From Eubacteriales Family XIII. Incertae Sedis bacterium (GTDB lineage: Bacteria > Bacillota > Clostridia > Peptostreptococcales > Anaerovoracaceae): a stretch of DNA of 58,461 bases. Under the pieces are notes generated by a model that searched no databases, was not told the DNA's origin, and saw only the letters and a list, made by a program, of their open reading frames with translations. Position numbers and translations under genes: made by a program. How positions within the stretch are numbered: position 1 is the stretch's first letter; each line of letters starts with the position of its first letter. Shown one piece after another: positions 43,383 through 58,317 of this stretch. Where the stretch lies: assembly GCA_031266025.1 (NCBI GenBank), contig JAISBV010000054.1:1-58461 (forward strand), given 5' to 3'.

Positions 43383-45443
43383 ATGAAGAATATTTTAAAC
43401 AACGTAATAGTGTTTTTCGTAATAGGGATCATTGCGCTGATCATTATCCCGCTGCCCACCTTTGTTCTTGATTTTATGTTCATCGTCAGCATTACAGTTT
43501 CGCTCTTGGTGCTTGTCATGACCATGTACATCAGGGGGCCGCTCGATTTTTCGATATTTCCGTCGCTGCTTTTGATTACGACAATACTGCGTCTCGCTCT
43601 GAACATTTCGTCTACGAGACTCATACTGTCGGAACAGGGACAGGCCGGCAAGGTCATAGAGACGTTCGGCACATTCGTTCTGCGCGGCAACCCAATAGTC
43701 GGATTCATCGTGTTTCTGATAATTATCGTCGTGCAGTTCATCGTTATAACGAAAGGCGCCGAGCGCATAGCCGAGGTTTCCGCGCGCTTCACCTTGGACG
43801 CGATGCCCGGCAAGCAGATGGCCATAGACGCGGACATGAACTCAGGGCTGATCTCGGAGGATGAGGCGAAGCTGCGACGCGAAAAGATACAGCGCGAGGC
43901 CGAATTCTTCGGGGCTATGGACGGCGCCACGAAGCTCGTCAAGGGCGACGCCATAGCCGCCATAATCATAGCCTTTGTCAACCTTGTCGCGGGCTCTGTC
44001 ATAGGCATGGTGCAGAGCAGCATGACGTTTACGGAGGTTTTGAACGTATATTCGATAGCAACCGTCGGGGACGGTCTCGTCAGCCAACTCCCCGCGCTCA
44101 TGATATCGACGGCCACGGGTATGATAGTCACGCGCTCCGCTTCGGAGGGCAACCTGAACGAGGACGTCAAGCGCCAGTTCATATCACAGCCGCGAACGCT
44201 CGTGCTCGCCGGGATCACGATACTGTGCATGGATTTCATACCCGGCGCTCCTCGCATACAGATAACCGCGATGGGGCTTTTGCTGCTTATACTCGGCATT
44301 GTGCTCATTCGCAACAAAAAGAAGGGCGAGATTGCGGAAGAGCGTTCCGAGATGCAGGGTCTGATAGAAGAGGAAGGCACGGAAGCCGATTACTACAGGA
44401 ATATAGACAACGTATACAACCTGCTCGGCGTCGAGCCCATTGAGATGGAATTCGGGTATTCGTTGCTGCCCCTTGTAGACGAGGCGAGCGGCGGCAGCTT
44501 CATAGACCGTATCGTCATATTCCGCAAGCAGTTCGCGCTCGATATGGGAGTTGTGGTGCCGACCGTGAGACTGCGTGACAACGGCCTTATCAATCCCAAC
44601 CAGTATCTTGTGAAGATCAAGGGCGAGGAGGTCGCGCGCGGCGAGGTGTTGGTGGACTACTATCTGGCTTTGGATCCGGGTAACGCGGCCGGAGAGATAG
44701 AGGGCATAGACACAATCGAGCCGGCGTACGAAATTCCGGGCAAATGGATCAACGAGAGCGAGCGGGAGATGGCCGAAGTCTACGGATATACGGTTATAGA
44801 CGCGCTTTCCGTCATAGTGACGCATATGTCCGAGGTGATCAAGCGTCACATACACGAGCTTATAAGCAGACAGGATATAAACGTGCTGCTCGAAAATGTG
44901 AAGAAGCACAATCAGGCTATTGTGGACGATGTTATACCGACTGTCGTCAGTATATCGGATTTGCAGAAGATATTGATGAATTTGCTGCGAGAGGGTATTC
45001 CGATTCGCGACATGGAGAGCATACTTGAAAGCATAGGGGATCACGGAAATACGATCAAGGACACGGATATGCTGACGGAATACGTGAGACAGAGACTCAA
45101 GAGAACCATTACGAGGAAGTACACGGACGGCGGCGGCATCAAGGTGCTGACGCTTGACCAAAGTATAGAAAACAACATACTGAATTCGGCAAAGCAAAGC
45201 GATCACGGCACGTATCTCGCTATGGAACCGCAGACGGTTCAGCGGATCGTTGAGGATGTGAACGCGCAAATCAACAAGGTGAAGGAAATCGTCCATCAAC
45301 CCGTCATACTGACTTCACCGATAGTGCGCATATACTTCAAACGGCTTATTGATCAATTTTTACCCAATTTGACGGTATTATCGTTCAATGAGATAGATTC
45401 CGACATACAGATACAGGCCATAGGACTCATACAGGGCAATTGA
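43383..45443 (+). CDS. flhA: Flagellar export gate protein FlhA
   Basis: 686 residues. About eight helices, the FHIPEP signature region '[20 protein letters not shown]', '[31 protein letters not shown]' in local form ('[15 protein letters not shown]'), and the large cytoplasmic domain. It forms the nonameric docking ring of the export apparatus. flhF and flhG, which often follow, are missing; fliA overlaps its end region instead. Confidence 0.96.
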   Translation: [686 protein letters not shown]

Positions 45444-45466
45444 TCATCGGTGAAAGCGGGAGCGAT

Positions 45467-46243
45467 ATGGATGCAGTCCGTCCGGAAAACGACGACAAAT
45501 ACACGGCTCAGTGGAAAGCATACAGGGAAAGCGGCGATACGGATGCGAGAAATGACATCGTGCTCGCGTATATTGAGCTTGTCAAGCGTATCGTTTTTCG
45601 CTTCAAGGGCAGTTATAACAATTACGGACAGCTTGACGACATGATTAATCAGGGGATGATCGCGCTCATTGACGCCGTCGAAAAGTTTGATCCGGGTATG
45701 GGTTATAAATTCGAGACGTTCGCGTCGCTCAAAATCAAGGGCGCGGTCATAGACTTCATGCGCAAGCAGGACTGGATACCGAGGAATCAGCGCAGCCTTG
45801 TCAAGGAGCTCAACTCGGCGTATAACGCGCTTTACGCCGAGTACGGACGCGAACCGAGCAAGGAAGAGATCGCCGAAAGGATGGGCGTCGATACGGAGCA
45901 GCTTGAAAAGATACTTCAAAAACGTCAGAACGCCATGATACTTTCGTATGAGGAGGCCATAAACGAAAAGATGATGACGGCTTTCCCTCTTCTTACGGAG
46001 CAGAAGGAACTCGAAGCGCCCGAAGCGGAGATGCTGAAGGAAGAATTGAAGCAGCAGCTTACGGCGGCTGTAGGTGAGCTCGGCGAGAGGGAACGGTTGG
46101 TTGTTTCGCTTTACTATTATGAGAATCTGAAGCTGCGCGAGATCGCCGGCGTAATGAATATAACGGAATCAAGGGTTTCGCAGATACATTCGTCGGCAAT
46201 CATGAAGCTGCGGCATAGGATAGATATGTACGAGAACAGTTGA
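45467..46243 (+). CDS. fliA: RNA polymerase sigma factor FliA/SigD (sigma-28)
   Basis: 258 residues from ATG at 45467 (GGGAG upstream); an in-frame TTG at 45440 overlaps flhA. 'YIELVKRIVFRF', 'LDDMINQGMIALIDAVEKFDP' (region 2), 'EYGREPSKEEIAERMGV' (region 3) and 'GELGERERLVVSLYYYENLKLREIAGVMNITESRVSQIHSSAI' segments (region 4) are typical. It should read the promoter at 25384-25410 and be held by FlgM. Confidence 0.95.
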   Translation: MDAVRPENDDKYTAQWKAYRESGDTDARNDIVLAYIELVKRIVFRFKGSYNNYGQLDDMINQGMIALIDAVEKFDPGMGYKFETFASLKIKGAVIDFMRKQDWIPRNQRSLVKELNSAYNALYAEYGREPSKEEIAERMGVDTEQLEKILQKRQNAMILSYEEAINEKMMTAFPLLTEQKELEAPEAEMLKEELKQQLTAAVGELGERERLVVSLYYYENLKLREIAGVMNITESRVSQIHSSAIMKLRHRIDMYENS

Positions 46244-47913: not shown

Positions 47914-49299
47914 ATGGGCAAATATACTGTCAAGATCAATGTCAACGGCGACGGCACGGAAGCGACCGTCATCATCGGGCAAGCGCCCGACGGCAATCCG
48001 GAACCGCTGACCAAGGAAGACTTGCAGCGCGCGGTCGACGGGGCGCGAATTTCTTTCGGTTTGGACTCGGCCACATTACGGGCCTTGTCGGCGGGGCCTT
48101 TGCTTGATACGTCTATACCGATAGCGACAGGCATGCCGCCGGTAGACGGAGAGAACGGCGCCGCTGTATTTCATGTAAAAAAATCGGATGAGTTCAAGCC
48201 GGATTACGGCGGCGACGACGCGAAACTTGTGGATTACAAAAATGTGGATGTATTTCAGATAGCCGAGAAAGGACAGGCGCTGTGTGAAATTACGCCGCCG
48301 ACACAGGGAACAGACGGCACAAACGTATACGGAGGCGCTATCCCGGCCCGGCCCGGCAGAGCCGCTCCCGATCCCCGCGGCGCGAATACCGTATGGTCGG
48401 AAGACGGTAAGACGCTGCTTGCCGATGCGGACGGCGTTGTGAATTTTAACGGAACGACCATAAGTATTTCGGAATTGCTGAACATACCCGGAGACGTCGA
48501 CCTTTCGACCGGCAATATACGCTTCGGAGGCGACGTCATTGTGAAGGGTTCCATAAATGAGGGTTTTATTGTCGAATGCGGCGGTAACCTGACGGTAAAA
48601 GGCAAGATCGGCAGTGCGGACGTCAGCGTAAAAGGGAACTTGATCGTCGCGGACGGTGTCAACGGAAGTAGGCAGAAAACCATAACGGTGGGCGGATATA
48701 TGCGCGCGCGCTATATAGAAAACGGCACGATCAAAGCCGAAGGCGATATTTTCGCGGATTATATAATAGACAGCAGTGTAGAGTGTAGGGGCAATATCAC
48801 GCTGTCAGGTTCCAAGTCGGTGCTCGTGGGCGGCAGAACCGCAGTTTTCGGGCAGTTGTCCGCGAACTATATGGGGAACGAGCGCGGCATAAAGACGCGC
48901 GTAGAGCTAATGAGACCTCCGATCGACGAAGAAAAGTTGGCGCGGCTTACGGAGGAGCGCGAAGCGTTGAACGTCGAGCTTAAAGCGAACGCGGAGAATG
49001 TCTCAAAGCTAAGGCACCTCATGGGGCAAACGGATAAGCCCGAGGTCGGTCTGCTGCATAAGCAGCTCATGGGTCAGGCGCCTATTCTCAGGGAAAAACT
49101 CCACTTGTTGGACGACGAGATTCTGCGCGTGAAGGGCGAGGGCGTTTCGGATTGCCCCGGCAGCATCGTATGCCGACGGATACTGTATTCGGGCGTGGAT
49201 ATTTTTGCCGGCAGCCTTATGCTGCAGAGGGATCATTCGAACCTTGAACATTGCAAACTCTGCTTGGACAAGGGCGACTGGACAGTCGGCTTGGCTTGA
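47914..49299 (+). CDS. FapA family (DUF342) polymerising protein
   Basis: 461 residues. An N-terminal domain, then a right-handed beta-helix ('FGGDVIVKGSINEGFIVECG', 'GNLTVKGKIGSADVSVKGNL') and a C-terminal coiled coil (about 330-400), the FapA/DUF342 layout. These proteins are frequent in flagellar and chemotaxis loci of Clostridia and resemble bactofilin-like scaffolds; their role in motility is unclear. 'GMPPVDGENGA' near residue 72 is a typical family element. It starts 49 bp after flgG. Confidence 0.85.
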   Translation: MGKYTVKINVNGDGTEATVIIGQAPDGNPEPLTKEDLQRAVDGARISFGLDSATLRALSAGPLLDTSIPIATGMPPVDGENGAAVFHVKKSDEFKPDYGGDDAKLVDYKNVDVFQIAEKGQALCEITPPTQGTDGTNVYGGAIPARPGRAAPDPRGANTVWSEDGKTLLADADGVVNFNGTTISISELLNIPGDVDLSTGNIRFGGDVIVKGSINEGFIVECGGNLTVKGKIGSADVSVKGNLIVADGVNGSRQKTITVGGYMRARYIENGTIKAEGDIFADYIIDSSVECRGNITLSGSKSVLVGGRTAVFGQLSANYMGNERGIKTRVELMRPPIDEEKLARLTEEREALNVELKANAENVSKLRHLMGQTDKPEVGLLHKQLMGQAPILREKLHLLDDEILRVKGEGVSDCPGSIVCRRILYSGVDIFAGSLMLQRDHSNLEHCKLCLDKGDWTVGLA

Positions 49300-49398: not shown

Positions 49399-50061
49399 AT
49401 GGCAATTACAAAACGAATTGTAAAGGTTGATATTTCAAAGCTTGATGAGGGTCTGCACGCTTCTGCGGATAATGTGACGATCGAACCGGATCGTCTGATT
49501 ATGCGCGGCGTCGATTTCATGAATATCCCGCATCAAACGCCGGTGGATATCATTATCTATTACGAGGACGGCATACAGTTTTTTTTCGGTGAGATTACGC
49601 TTTCATTGTCGACGCAGATCAATGTCGAAATACTGTCGGTTGTGAGCGACAAAAAGGAGAGAAGACGCAGTTTGAAGGTAAGGACGTCCTTCGACGCGTC
49701 TGCTGTTCTCATGTTTTCCATGAAGGAGCGCCGCCATATGCGCGTCAATGTGCCTATTCGCGTGCGTGACCTGTCTATGGGAGGTATAGGTTTTTTTTGC
49801 AATCATCCGTTTTTCAGAAGGCAGAAGCTTATACTTGACATGAGCTATTTGAAGAAAGATTTTGAGTTGGAATTTCAGATTCTCCGCAAGGAGAAGATAG
49901 AGGCGCATATGGTTGACGGCGTTGAAATATCAAAAGTAGGCTTCAAGTTTCGCTATGGAGGCTGCATATTGAGTATCACGGCCGAACAGGAGCGCCTGAT
50001 TACGGAATACGTGTTTAAGGTTCAGTTGTCGGAACATCAAAGGAGGAAGGAAGCGGAGTAG
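49399..50061 (+). CDS. PilZ-domain protein, YcgR-like flagellar brake candidate
   Basis: 220 residues. A 80-residue N-terminal YcgR-like beta domain is followed by a C-terminal PilZ domain: the basic run 'KKERRRSLKVR' (85-95) and 'RDLSMGGIGF' (Asp124 to Gly129) correspond to the two halves of the c-di-GMP site. The spacing fits best if Lys93 takes the place of the second Arg of RxxxR, so binding strength is open to doubt. Such proteins slow the motor when c-di-GMP is high. It lies ahead of ParA and ComFB genes. Confidence 0.82.
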   Translation: MAITKRIVKVDISKLDEGLHASADNVTIEPDRLIMRGVDFMNIPHQTPVDIIIYYEDGIQFFFGEITLSLSTQINVEILSVVSDKKERRRSLKVRTSFDASAVLMFSMKERRHMRVNVPIRVRDLSMGGIGFFCNHPFFRRQKLILDMSYLKKDFELEFQILRKEKIEAHMVDGVEISKVGFKFRYGGCILSITAEQERLITEYVFKVQLSEHQRRKEAE

Positions 50062-50099
50062 GGCGGCTTTTTTCAGAGCCTTGCAAAAAGGATAACATT

Positions 50100-50888
50100 A
50101 TGGGCAAAACGATCGTGATCACAAATCAAAAAGGAGGCGTCGGCAAGACGACTACGGCGAGCGCACTGATTACGGGTCTTTCCATGAAGGGCTTTAAAAC
50201 GCTCGGAATTGATCTTGACCCCCAGGGCAACTTCGGCTTCTGTCTGGGCGCCGACACAGAAACGAGTCCCACGATCTACGACTTAATGAAAGGCGTCAAA
50301 CCCGCAGTCGACATCATTCAGACCAAGAACGATATAGATATAATACCTTCGAATATACTGCTTTCCGGAGCCGAACTCGAATTTTCGATGATAGGCAGGG
50401 AAACATTGCTTAAAAGGGGCTTGGCGCCCGTAAAGGACAAATATGATTACATTATAATAGATACGCCGCCGGCTTTGAATATCCTTACTGTGAACGCTTA
50501 TACCGCGACCGATGCGCTTATTATATTGATGATACCCGAGATATTGAGCCTTATGGGCATTTCTCAGCTTCGGGAAACGGTTGAGTTAGTGAAAAGCATC
50601 TACAATCCGAGGATAGAAGTTCTCGGTATATTGCTTAACAAATACGATAAGAGAAGGATACTTACGCGCGACGTCGAGGAAATGGCCGGCGTCATAGCGA
50701 AGGAACTCCATACGAAGGTTTTTAAGGCAAAGATTCGTGCTTCTGTCGCCGTGGCCGAGTTCCCCGCGCACGAGGGAGGAAGTCTGTTCAAATACGCGCC
50801 AAGGTGCAACGCCGCAAAAGACTATCTTGTATTTGTTAATGAGCTGATCGCGGAGAAGGGGATGAAGCTGCATGGCAAGAAGAGATAA
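50100..50888 (+). CDS. ParA/Soj-family ATPase in the chemotaxis part of the cluster
   Basis: 262 residues. The deviant Walker A 'QKGGVGKTTTA' has both Lys11 and Lys16; 'GIDLDPQGNFGFCLG' and 'DYIIIDTPPALNILTVNA' are the A' and B motifs. 'VAVAEFPAHEGGSLFKYAP' near the end is typical of Soj/ParA, not of FlhG, whose 'GKGGVGKT' form and N-terminal activation helix are absent. ParA ATPases of this type position chemotaxis arrays or other complexes by forming gradients on DNA. It overlaps the next gene by 17 bases. Confidence 0.88.
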   Translation: MGKTIVITNQKGGVGKTTTASALITGLSMKGFKTLGIDLDPQGNFGFCLGADTETSPTIYDLMKGVKPAVDIIQTKNDIDIIPSNILLSGAELEFSMIGRETLLKRGLAPVKDKYDYIIIDTPPALNILTVNAYTATDALIILMIPEILSLMGISQLRETVELVKSIYNPRIEVLGILLNKYDKRRILTRDVEEMAGVIAKELHTKVFKAKIRASVAVAEFPAHEGGSLFKYAPRCNAAKDYLVFVNELIAEKGMKLHGKKR

Positions 50889-51750
50889 CAAAACAGAACA
50901 TGTTATGAAGCTAATTACGAAAGACGGCACGGTTGTGGGCGGCGTGTCCGAAAGCGGCGTCGCCGAGATCGGGGCTATCGAGACCGAGGTTCGTCCCGCA
51001 GAGGGCAGTCCGCCGAGTTACAAGACCAAGCTGAAGATTGAAATAGAGCCTGAGGTTGAGGTCAAGGAACCGAACAGGCTGAGACAGCCGAGAGGTCAAT
51101 CCGTTTCAGTCAGCGCCCGTGATACGGACGCGGATGATTCGCGCCCGCCCGAATACAGCGAGGACTCGTCGTCCGACGCTCCGGAATACGGAGACGCTTT
51201 GGAGTCGATACCGGACGGCACGCCTTATGAGATGCTCAATATGAATGTCAAACCGGCGGCCCCGGTCGAGATACTTGATGAGAAAGTCGGTTCGGCGCCG
51301 CCCGCCGAGACGGTCAATAAGAATACCGGCTCGGCGCCATCCTTCGGTATGTTGGTGTTCGATGAAGTAAAGGCATTGCGGGAATCCGATAATGACATGC
51401 TGAAGCAGGATGAACTCAGGCGCGCAAAAAAGATGCAGATCGAGAATTCTTTGCTTAACAAAAGCAGAAGTTTGATCAATCTTTCCGAAGTGCTTACAAA
51501 GGAATTACTGCCGTCGGTAATGGAGCGCATGGATGTCTGTACCTGCCCCGTATGCACAGGCAATGTACTGGCCTTGGCTCTTAACTCGCTGCCTACCAAG
51601 TACGTTACGACCGACGAAGGCAAGCAGTATACGCAGCTTGAGGTCTACAAACGGCAAAACGAGCTTGATGTTATGGCGGCGCTGACAAGGGCTTGCTTGC
51701 GTGTAAAAGGTTCGCCGCGACACGAGATTATAGATGATTTGAATGAATGA
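50872..51750 (+). CDS. ComFB-domain protein with long disordered N-terminus
   Basis: 292 residues. Residues 1-195 are polar, Pro/Glu/Ser-rich and probably disordered, with loosely repeated 'GSAPPAETVNKNTGSAPS'. The C-terminal 202-285 is a ComFB domain: 'LTKELLPSVMERM', Cys223-Thr-Cys225-Pro-Val-Cys228, 'LALALNSLPTKYVTTDEG', 'RVKGSPRH'. The three Cys probably bind zinc. ComFB is named from the B. subtilis competence operon; I recall recent reports of cyclic dinucleotide binding by the family, which I cannot verify here. Overlap with parA and the next gene suggests a coupled pair. Confidence 0.82.
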   Translation: MARRDNKTEHVMKLITKDGTVVGGVSESGVAEIGAIETEVRPAEGSPPSYKTKLKIEIEPEVEVKEPNRLRQPRGQSVSVSARDTDADDSRPPEYSEDSSSDAPEYGDALESIPDGTPYEMLNMNVKPAAPVEILDEKVGSAPPAETVNKNTGSAPSFGMLVFDEVKALRESDNDMLKQDELRRAKKMQIENSLLNKSRSLINLSEVLTKELLPSVMERMDVCTCPVCTGNVLALALNSLPTKYVTTDEGKQYTQLEVYKRQNELDVMAALTRACLRVKGSPRHEIIDDLNE

Positions 51751-51764
51751 CGGGAGGGCTTCAA

Positions 51765-52385
51765 GTGATCAGCAATTACGAAGAACTTAGTGATACCCAC
51801 ATAGACGTTTTAAAGGAGATAGGCAATATAGGCGCGGGTAATGCGGCTACATCGCTTGGAATGATCTTGAACGCCGAGGTAGGCATCAACCTTCCTACCG
51901 TACGGATATCGGATTTTGACACGGCGTTGAACGCAATGGGCGGCGCGGAGAGCATGACGGTCGGCGTGCTGCTGAATTTTTCCGGCGAAGCGTCGGGCAT
52001 GATCATGTTTCTGCTCGGTATGGACGATGCGCAGAACATTACGAGTATTCTGGTACAGGACGACGCGCCCATAGAGGACGGCTTGAGTGAGATGAAGCTC
52101 TCCGCTATAAAGGAGATAGGTAATATACTGGGTTCCGCCTATATAAATTCCATAGCCCTTCTCACGGGACTTCAAATAGATCTGTCTGTGCCTTATATTG
52201 CGATAGATATGGCAGGAGCCATTCTTTCCGTTCCTATTATTGAGTTCGGCGCCGTTGGGGACAAAGTCATGTTCATAGAGGAAAGTTTTTTTACGGACGA
52301 GCAGCAGTTGAACAGCAACATCATCATGTTTGCGGAAGTGGACACGTTGCAGCGAATCATGGGAAGATTAGGAATTGAAGGATGA
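51765..52385 (+). CDS. cheC: CheY-P phosphatase CheC
   Basis: 206 residues from GTG at 51765, with GGGAGGG upstream at good spacing; an ATG at 51747 overlapping the ComFB stop would add six residues. Both active helices are present, 'VLKEIGNIGAGNAATSLGMI' and 'AIKEIGNILGSAYINSI', each with the catalytic Glu and Asn. CheC removes phosphate from CheY and is stimulated by CheD. The stop overlaps cheD (ATGA). Confidence 0.94.
   Translation: MISNYEELSDTHIDVLKEIGNIGAGNAATSLGMILNAEVGINLPTVRISDFDTALNAMGGAESMTVGVLLNFSGEASGMIMFLLGMDDAQNITSILVQDDAPIEDGLSEMKLSAIKEIGNILGSAYINSIALLTGLQIDLSVPYIAIDMAGAILSVPIIEFGAVGDKVMFIEESFFTDEQQLNSNIIMFAEVDTLQRIMGRLGIEG

Positions 52386-54774: not shown

Positions 54775-58317
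<3,543 letters not shown>

Follow-up and report, generated by a model that had tools for sequence, protein, structure and literature searches.

A ParA-type ATPase and a ComFB-domain protein as a candidate placement pair in flagellar-chemotaxis operons of Clostridia

The window analysed here is a stretch of 58,461 nucleotides, one contig (JAISBV010000054.1) of a 2.6 Mb draft genome (82% complete) from an Eubacteriales Family XIII. Incertae Sedis bacterium (GCA_031266025.1). Its flagellar-chemotaxis operon contains a gene for a ParA ATPase, named ParA-F for its flagellar locus, followed by comFB, whose product consists of a short basic N-terminal peptide (N-peptide), a variable linker and a C-terminal ComFB domain. 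We propose, with a probability of about 0.68, that the ComFB protein is the cognate partner of the ParA-F ATPase and that the two stand in for FlhF/FlhG, controlling the position or number of the flagellar-chemotaxis apparatus with the ComFB protein as the adaptor. At the level of sequence, the proposal draws on the pairing of the two genes, their joint loss, their restriction to flagellated genomes within the order, the link between the N-peptide and ParA-F, and the absence of FlhF.

Conservation of the pair and its link to flagella

We built a profile from the window ParA and its relatives and ran it on 394 genomes of the order. It returned 31 ParA-F proteins at 353-510 bits, with Soj-type proteins at no more than 232 bits and two plasmid-like proteins at 260-271 bits. 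Each of the 31 ParA-F genes is followed by comFB (30 by coordinates, and that of G010 by a comFB start that overlaps parA at the contig end). The pair is found in different gene settings, i.e. inside fapA-cheC, convergent on cheD, near fliW, behind cheY, or beside fliD/fliS; because all 31 pairs are kept together in at least four arrangements, the association goes beyond a chance neighbourhood. The two genes have also been lost together: in G294, cheC lies directly 3' of fapA, and pilZ, parA and comFB are all gone. An earlier note on this DNA had named a lack of conservation of the ParA-ComFB pair in other genomes as a ground for refutation, and the neighbourhood survey, at 31/31, removes this objection. 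A scan of named genomes gave at least 80 pair loci; among the matches listed, the pair is carried by Sinanaerobacter chloroacetimidivorans, Anaerovorax odorimutans DSM 5092, Flintibacter muris and Anaerotignum sp. MB30-C6, and also occurs in Mediterraneibacter, Acutalibacter, Butyricicoccus and many uncultured Clostridia. Wherever the contig continues at the named-genome loci listed, a partner with the N-peptide, or with a diverged form of it, lies 3' of ParA-F. The pair is widespread in Clostridia.

All 31 ParA-F genomes encode FlhA, compared with 139 of the 363 other genomes of the order (Fisher p ~1e-12, a value that ignores shared ancestry). Among the matches listed, flagellar or chemotaxis genes lie no more than 4 kb from the pair at 73 of 80 named loci, the usual flanks at the named loci listed being fliS-fliD on one side and an EAL-HDOD gene, cheV, cheD and cheC on the other; cheC/cheD adjoin the pair in several lineages. 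The EAL-HDOD gene, which stands next to or near comFB at many Oscillospiraceae and Lachnospirales loci (L184:5687-7075 and 21 further ones), is a further hint at signalling by cyclic di-GMP (c-di-GMP). Within the family of the window, 27 of 31 flagellated genomes have ParA-F; the four without it are G294 (the joint loss), G300 (where the contig ends), G340 (where parA is deleted) and G392.

The presence of ParA-F goes with the absence of FlhF, called by TIGR03499 above its cut-off. FlhF was found in none of 59 ParA-F genomes, that of the window included: it is absent from all 35 genomes of the order set (the 31 with ParA-F plus G294, G300, G340 and G392), from 24 named ParA-F genomes and from the 4 other ParA-F genomes of the class sample. 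In contrast, 26 of 31 flagellated comparators have FlhF above the cut-off, mostly adjoining FlhA. Genome G663 belongs to a family (f37) in which FlhF is present in other sampled members (e.g. G455, G514, G539 and G562). The exclusion rests on flagellated genomes, since the class-wide comparison of FlhF in ParA-F genomes and the rest (0/5 vs 104/296) is by itself not significant (p 0.17).

The ATPase and its partner

In an alignment of 23 ParA-F homologues the deviant Walker A, Walker A' and Walker B motifs of the ParA branch of ParA/MinD ATPases are all kept, with KGGVGKTT, DLDPQG and DTPP conserved. In the tree, the ParA-F proteins form a single clade (support 97/99) that lies with Soj and is separate from FlhG. 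When an AlphaFold2 model of ParA-F was compared with known structures, Soj/ParA proteins matched best (Z 33-37, with the Soj-like fold at 36.9), followed by McdA (30.7), MinD (28) and FlhG/FleN (25-27, with FlhG itself at 25.7). By model and alignment, ParA-F begins at the first strand (residues 3-9), so that the N-terminal DQAxxLR helix that precedes the P-loop strand of FlhG is missing. The suggestion in the earlier note of a Soj-type ParA in place of FlhG therefore agrees with both tree and model, as well as with the absence of FlhF.

Three other identities for ParA-F were tried and rejected. That it is FlhG is ruled out by the separate clade, the Soj-like model, the missing N-terminal helix and the absent FlhF. 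That it is the ATPase of a chromosomal Soj-ParB system is ruled out because its partner gene is comFB instead of parB and because the window genome carries a different Soj gene adjoining parB (L250). As for an origin in plasmid partition, the plasmid-like ParA proteins of G103 and G544 are the two that score 260-271 bits, and their loci have no ComFB.

The C-terminal domain of the partner matches PF10719 at 60.6 bits (curated cut-off 25). In Foldseek searches its model resembles Bacillus subtilis ComFB (4wai, TMt 0.75) and, more weakly, c-di-GMP-bound CdgR (8hja, E 4e-3). Across 23 pairs C223, C225 and C228 are invariant and C275 is at least 90% conserved, forming a four-cysteine zinc-type site for which metal binding is predicted. 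The AlphaFold2 model of the whole protein has a helix at residues 7-19, a region at about 20-160 in which the predicted local distance difference test score is near 50, and a second helix at 163-195 leading to the domain. The earlier note had described a disordered arm of 195 residues; the flexible stretch at about 20-160 agrees with that description, but the conserved basic peptide at 1-17 and the two predicted helices do not.

The N-peptide of ParA-F-linked ComFB proteins follows the consensus M-[ASP]-[KR]-[KR]-[ST]-[NS]-K-T-x-H-V-[LM]-x-L-[IL]-[TSA]. Among 23 diverse pairs, the linkers of which are unalignable, K7, T8, V11 and L14 do not vary. In a set of 96 proteins, for which N-peptide invariance is partly a matter of selection, some of its positions having been fixed in the motif search, the peptide has a median net charge of +4, and the linker a median length of 164 residues (range 26-417) with 45% E+A+P. 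Counted locus by locus, the N-peptide is present in 34/34 distinct ParA-F-linked ComFB proteins, compared with 2/42 unlinked ones (45 minus three whose N-terminus is cut by contig ends). The 34 linked proteins share the form M-[AS]-[KR]-[KR]-[ST]-[NS]-K-T-x-H-V-L-x-L-[IL]. Where ParA-F diverges the N-peptide diverges as well, and in G684 it is retained beside a degenerate ComFB domain. The unlinked proteins without the peptide include second paralogues in the same genomes and the products of cheY-comFB-cheC operons.

Such second paralogues in family genomes (L125, L126, L127, L131, L141) have about 100-150 residues and no N-peptide. A second chemotaxis-linked type of ComFB, short, without cysteines and also without the peptide, is encoded in the order cheY-comFB-cheC-cheD-cheW-cheB by family members that have no ParA-F (L049:8614-8952, L057:8151-8522, L058 and L132-L136).

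A short, positively charged and conserved N-terminus joined to a flexible region is the mark of partners that activate ParA/MinD ATPases, i.e. PomX, ParB, ParG and MinE (PMC7993993, PMC10241942), and the same N-terminal role has been proposed for TlpT and McdB (PMC7993993, PMC10241942). By analogy, the N-peptide would stimulate the ATPase of ParA-F. The earlier note had cast the long arm as tether or stimulator; this can be refined, as contact with ParA-F is probably made by the 17-residue basic peptide rather than by the whole arm.

Cyanobacterial ComFB/CdgR proteins bind c-di-GMP and cyclic di-AMP (c-di-AMP) with micromolar affinity (PMC12313861), which makes cyclic-dinucleotide sensing by the window protein plausible. 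GGDEF and DAC enzymes are encoded in the window genome, so both messengers can be made. By its kinship to these proteins, the ComFB domain here is probably a cyclic-dinucleotide sensor.

Proposed mechanism and competing explanations

Beyond the pairing itself, we infer ATPase stimulation, DNA binding, a cargo and a cyclic-dinucleotide switch, which would fit together as follows. ParA-F would bind ATP, dimerise and hold on to a matrix, for which the nucleoid is the most likely candidate. The ComFB protein, dimeric through its ComFB domain, would touch ParA-F with its basic N-peptide, and this contact would trigger ATP hydrolysis and release, as with ParB, PomX, ParG and MinE. The long flexible linker would let the C-terminal domain dock on a cargo, either on the CheC/CheD/CheY side or at the C-ring, and the flagellar or chemotaxis cargo would thereby be placed, spaced or counted. 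The attachment to the cargo would be switched when the ComFB domain binds c-di-GMP or c-di-AMP.

The known system that ParA-F/ComFB works most like, by analogy, is ParC/ParP of Vibrio, in which the ATPase gene likewise lies immediately upstream in a chemotaxis operon and the partner has an N-terminal ATPase contact, a long proline-rich linker and a C-terminal cargo domain (PMC5706961). This likeness, together with the cheC, cheD, cheV, cheW and cheB genes beside the pair, raises the possibility that the chemoreceptor array alone is the cargo, as for ParC/ParP or PpfA/TlpT, with flagellar placement untouched. We regard this narrower version of our proposal as possible but rather unlikely: ParP carries a CheW-like AIF domain, whereas the partner of ParA-F has a ComFB domain and no CheW-like domain by Pfam; many pair loci lie by fliD/fliS or fliW; and the pair excludes FlhF, a gene for flagellum placement, whereas Vibrio has FlhF/FlhG besides ParC/ParP. 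PpfA of Rhodobacter sphaeroides is a ParA-like ATPase for chemoreceptor clusters, and the N-terminal extension of its partner TlpT is positively charged (PMC7993993); TlpT differs in being a chemotaxis protein without a ComFB domain.

Other systems share single features with the pair. FlhF and the MinD-like FlhG occupy the same place in the flagellar gene set and have the same presumed role in placement or number, but ParA-F resembles Soj and has no N-terminal activation helix, and its partner is a ComFB protein instead of the GTPase FlhF. PomZ/PomX and McdA/McdB likewise combine a dedicated ParA with a partner that has a basic N-peptide, a disordered region and a C-terminal scaffold or cargo part; however, what they position is the division site or the carboxysome, and they have no ComFB domain. 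BcsRQ-BcsE joins an ATPase of the ParA/MinD superfamily to a partner that senses c-di-GMP (PMC7439463), but serves cellulose secretion, and BcsE is not a ComFB protein. ComFB of B. subtilis and cyanobacterial ComFB/CdgR share the ComFB domain, the four-cysteine site (4wai; PMC4381287) and members that bind c-di-AMP or c-di-GMP (PMC12313861; 8hja), but are short or differently built, and a ParA partner or N-peptide is undescribed there.

A second alternative is a control of flagellar number or expression like that by FleN/FlhG with FleQ, i.e. a nucleotide- and second-messenger-dependent brake on flagellar genes or C-ring assembly that involves no moving gradient. ParA-F does occupy the place of FlhF/FlhG, and FlhG is known to exert its effect by way of either the FliM N-terminus or FliY (PMC12826062). 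A motif resembling that N-terminus, [LM]SQ[DE][DE]IE[KR][LM]L, is present in 1-7 copies in 11 of 96 ComFB linkers, mostly from Oscillospiraceae, and never arose in shuffled sequences. The linkers concerned, with GGKMSQDDIEKMLAGM and similar repeats, are those of L159:4796-5854, L158, L162, L163, L166, L169, L170, L176, L182, L188 and L110:9901-11013. The linker motif resembles the EIDAL-type motif found N-terminally in FliM/FliY, such as the LSQEEIDSLL with which a FliY-like protein of L035 begins. This likeness is a clue to the cargo of the pair, and the repeats are possibly a decoy that binds CheY or the switch complex. However, the window ComFB protein has no FliM/FliY-like motif, no FleQ-type transcription factor was seen at the loci examined, and ParA-F is Soj-like without the N-terminal helix of FlhG; we consider a control of this kind unlikely.

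Less probable still is that the ComFB protein is a cyclic-dinucleotide-dependent modulator of CheY or CheC whose localisation or stability is all that ParA-F controls. The short, cysteine-less ComFB proteins of the cheY-comFB-cheC operons in family members without ParA-F would suit such a role, but these are the proteins that lack the N-peptide, and with ParA-F the peptide and the ATPase are inseparable. Finally, ParA proteins are common and plasmid-like ones occur in relatives (L121, L122), but the idea that a stray partition ParA was caught in the operon by chance is very improbable and is contradicted by the survey, given the 31/31 pairing, the co-loss, the several arrangements, the dedicated clade and the separate Soj.

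Several observations weigh against the ATPase/partner proposal itself. The mutual exclusion of FlhF and ParA-F partly reflects shared ancestry, and some flagellated relatives (G107, G203, G270) have neither protein. Nucleoid binding by ParA-F is uncertain because only one of the two DNA-binding arginines of Soj is kept: the R189 equivalent is present in 25/26 ParA-F proteins and the R218 equivalent in 0/26 (22/26 have an arginine four columns before that position). Both unlinked proteins that carry the N-peptide also count here. In G340 the peptide is kept although parA, between pilZ and comFB, is internally deleted; at L124:9216-9284 its first ~20 codons are fused to its end, with pilZ and comFB intact, which may be a natural deletion or an assembly artefact. 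In G392 a ComFB protein with the diverged N-peptide NTTRKTANVMNLLSRT is encoded between flgG and fliD (L123:8293-9327), and no ParA-F was found in this 93% complete draft. Lastly, at L214, at L217 and in G684 the ComFB domain is weak or unrecognised.

FlhF/FlhG are regarded as the conserved switch that underlies flagellation patterns (PMC12826062), and the pair now names a candidate for what flagellated bacteria without them use, in a large group of Clostridia that includes cultured species. If the proposal is true, a receptor domain for cyclic dinucleotides is built into this ParA system and would link the messenger of the motile/sessile decision to the placement machinery. ComFB, whose function in Firmicutes is little known, would gain a partner, and a defined peptide, partner and ligand class can now be named for the ParA-F system. 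A broader reading, which we offer tentatively and which may well go too far, is that in many flagellated Clostridia, including gut commensals, FlhF/FlhG gave way to a widespread cyclic-dinucleotide-gated ParA system, with the ComFB protein setting where, or how many, flagella and chemotaxis arrays are made, in some lineages through copies of the FliM/FliY motif offered to CheY or the switch complex. In line with the earlier note, which named no described system of this form, no description of a ParA-ComFB pair was found in the literature searched (preprints and most subscription papers lay outside the search). By title or abstract, none of the papers found that mention ComFB concerns Clostridia flagella or ParA, and the gene goes unnamed in the text of the Roseburia/Eubacterium motility paper.

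Layout of the locus

By the open reading frame (ORF) map and domain matches, the flagellar-chemotaxis operon runs flgB ... flhA-fliA-flgF-flgG-fapA-pilZ-parA-comFB-cheC-cheD-cheW-cheB (Table 1), and the ORF map of the window has no flhF or flhG between flhA and fliA. The 17-base overlap of parA and comFB given in the earlier note is confirmed at 50872-50888, and the comFB start at 50872 is backed by the conservation in relatives of the N-terminus that it encodes. The overlap of comFB with cheC, which that note also described, holds (as 4 bases) only for a cheC ATG start at 51747. A GTG in the same frame at 51765 is preceded by a good Shine-Dalgarno sequence (GGGAGGG, 51752-51758) and matches the start in the relative L124, so the two genes are probably separated by a gap of 14 bases instead.

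Table 1. Features of the window around the parA-comFB pair
Feature	Coordinates	Strand	Evidence or remark
flhA (43383-45443), directly followed by fliA (45440-46243)	43383-46243	+	ORF map
fapA	47914-49299	+	5' flank of pilZ-parA-comFB
pilZ, clade-specific neighbour outside the core pair	49399-50061	+	PF07238, E 1.8e-6
parA (ParA-F), flagellar-locus ParA ATPase, 262 residues	50100-50888	+	AAA_31, E 2.6e-50
comFB, candidate ParA partner, 292 residues (N-peptide, linker, ComFB domain)	50872-51750	+	PF10719, E 1.6e-16
Conserved basic N-terminal peptide MARRDNKTEHVMKLITK, comFB residues 1-17, proposed to stimulate ParA	50872-50922	+	Conservation
Variable linker, comFB residues 18-162, E/A/P-rich across the family	50923-51357	+	Low model confidence, unalignable
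Predicted helix, comFB residues 163-195, leading into the ComFB domain	51358-51456	+	AlphaFold2 model
ComFB domain, residues 203-282, zinc-type C223, C225, C228, C275	51478-51717	+	PF10719, Foldseek, conservation
cheC (probable GTG start at 51765), with cheD, cheW and cheB behind	51747-52385	+	CheC, E 4.3e-17

The earlier note had placed PilZ in one unit with ParA and ComFB. This does not hold, as pilZ is missing at the pair loci of other lineages and in a close relative (L099/L148). Within the clade the PilZ motif DxSxxG is intact and RxxxR reads RxxxK, a change that makes c-di-GMP binding by this protein uncertain.

At the other end of the operon, a gene resembling pyruvate:ferredoxin/flavodoxin oxidoreductase (54790-58317) lies directly 3' of cheB, an order that is kept in many relatives, e.g. 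L046, L053, L057, L102, L105, L133 and L136.

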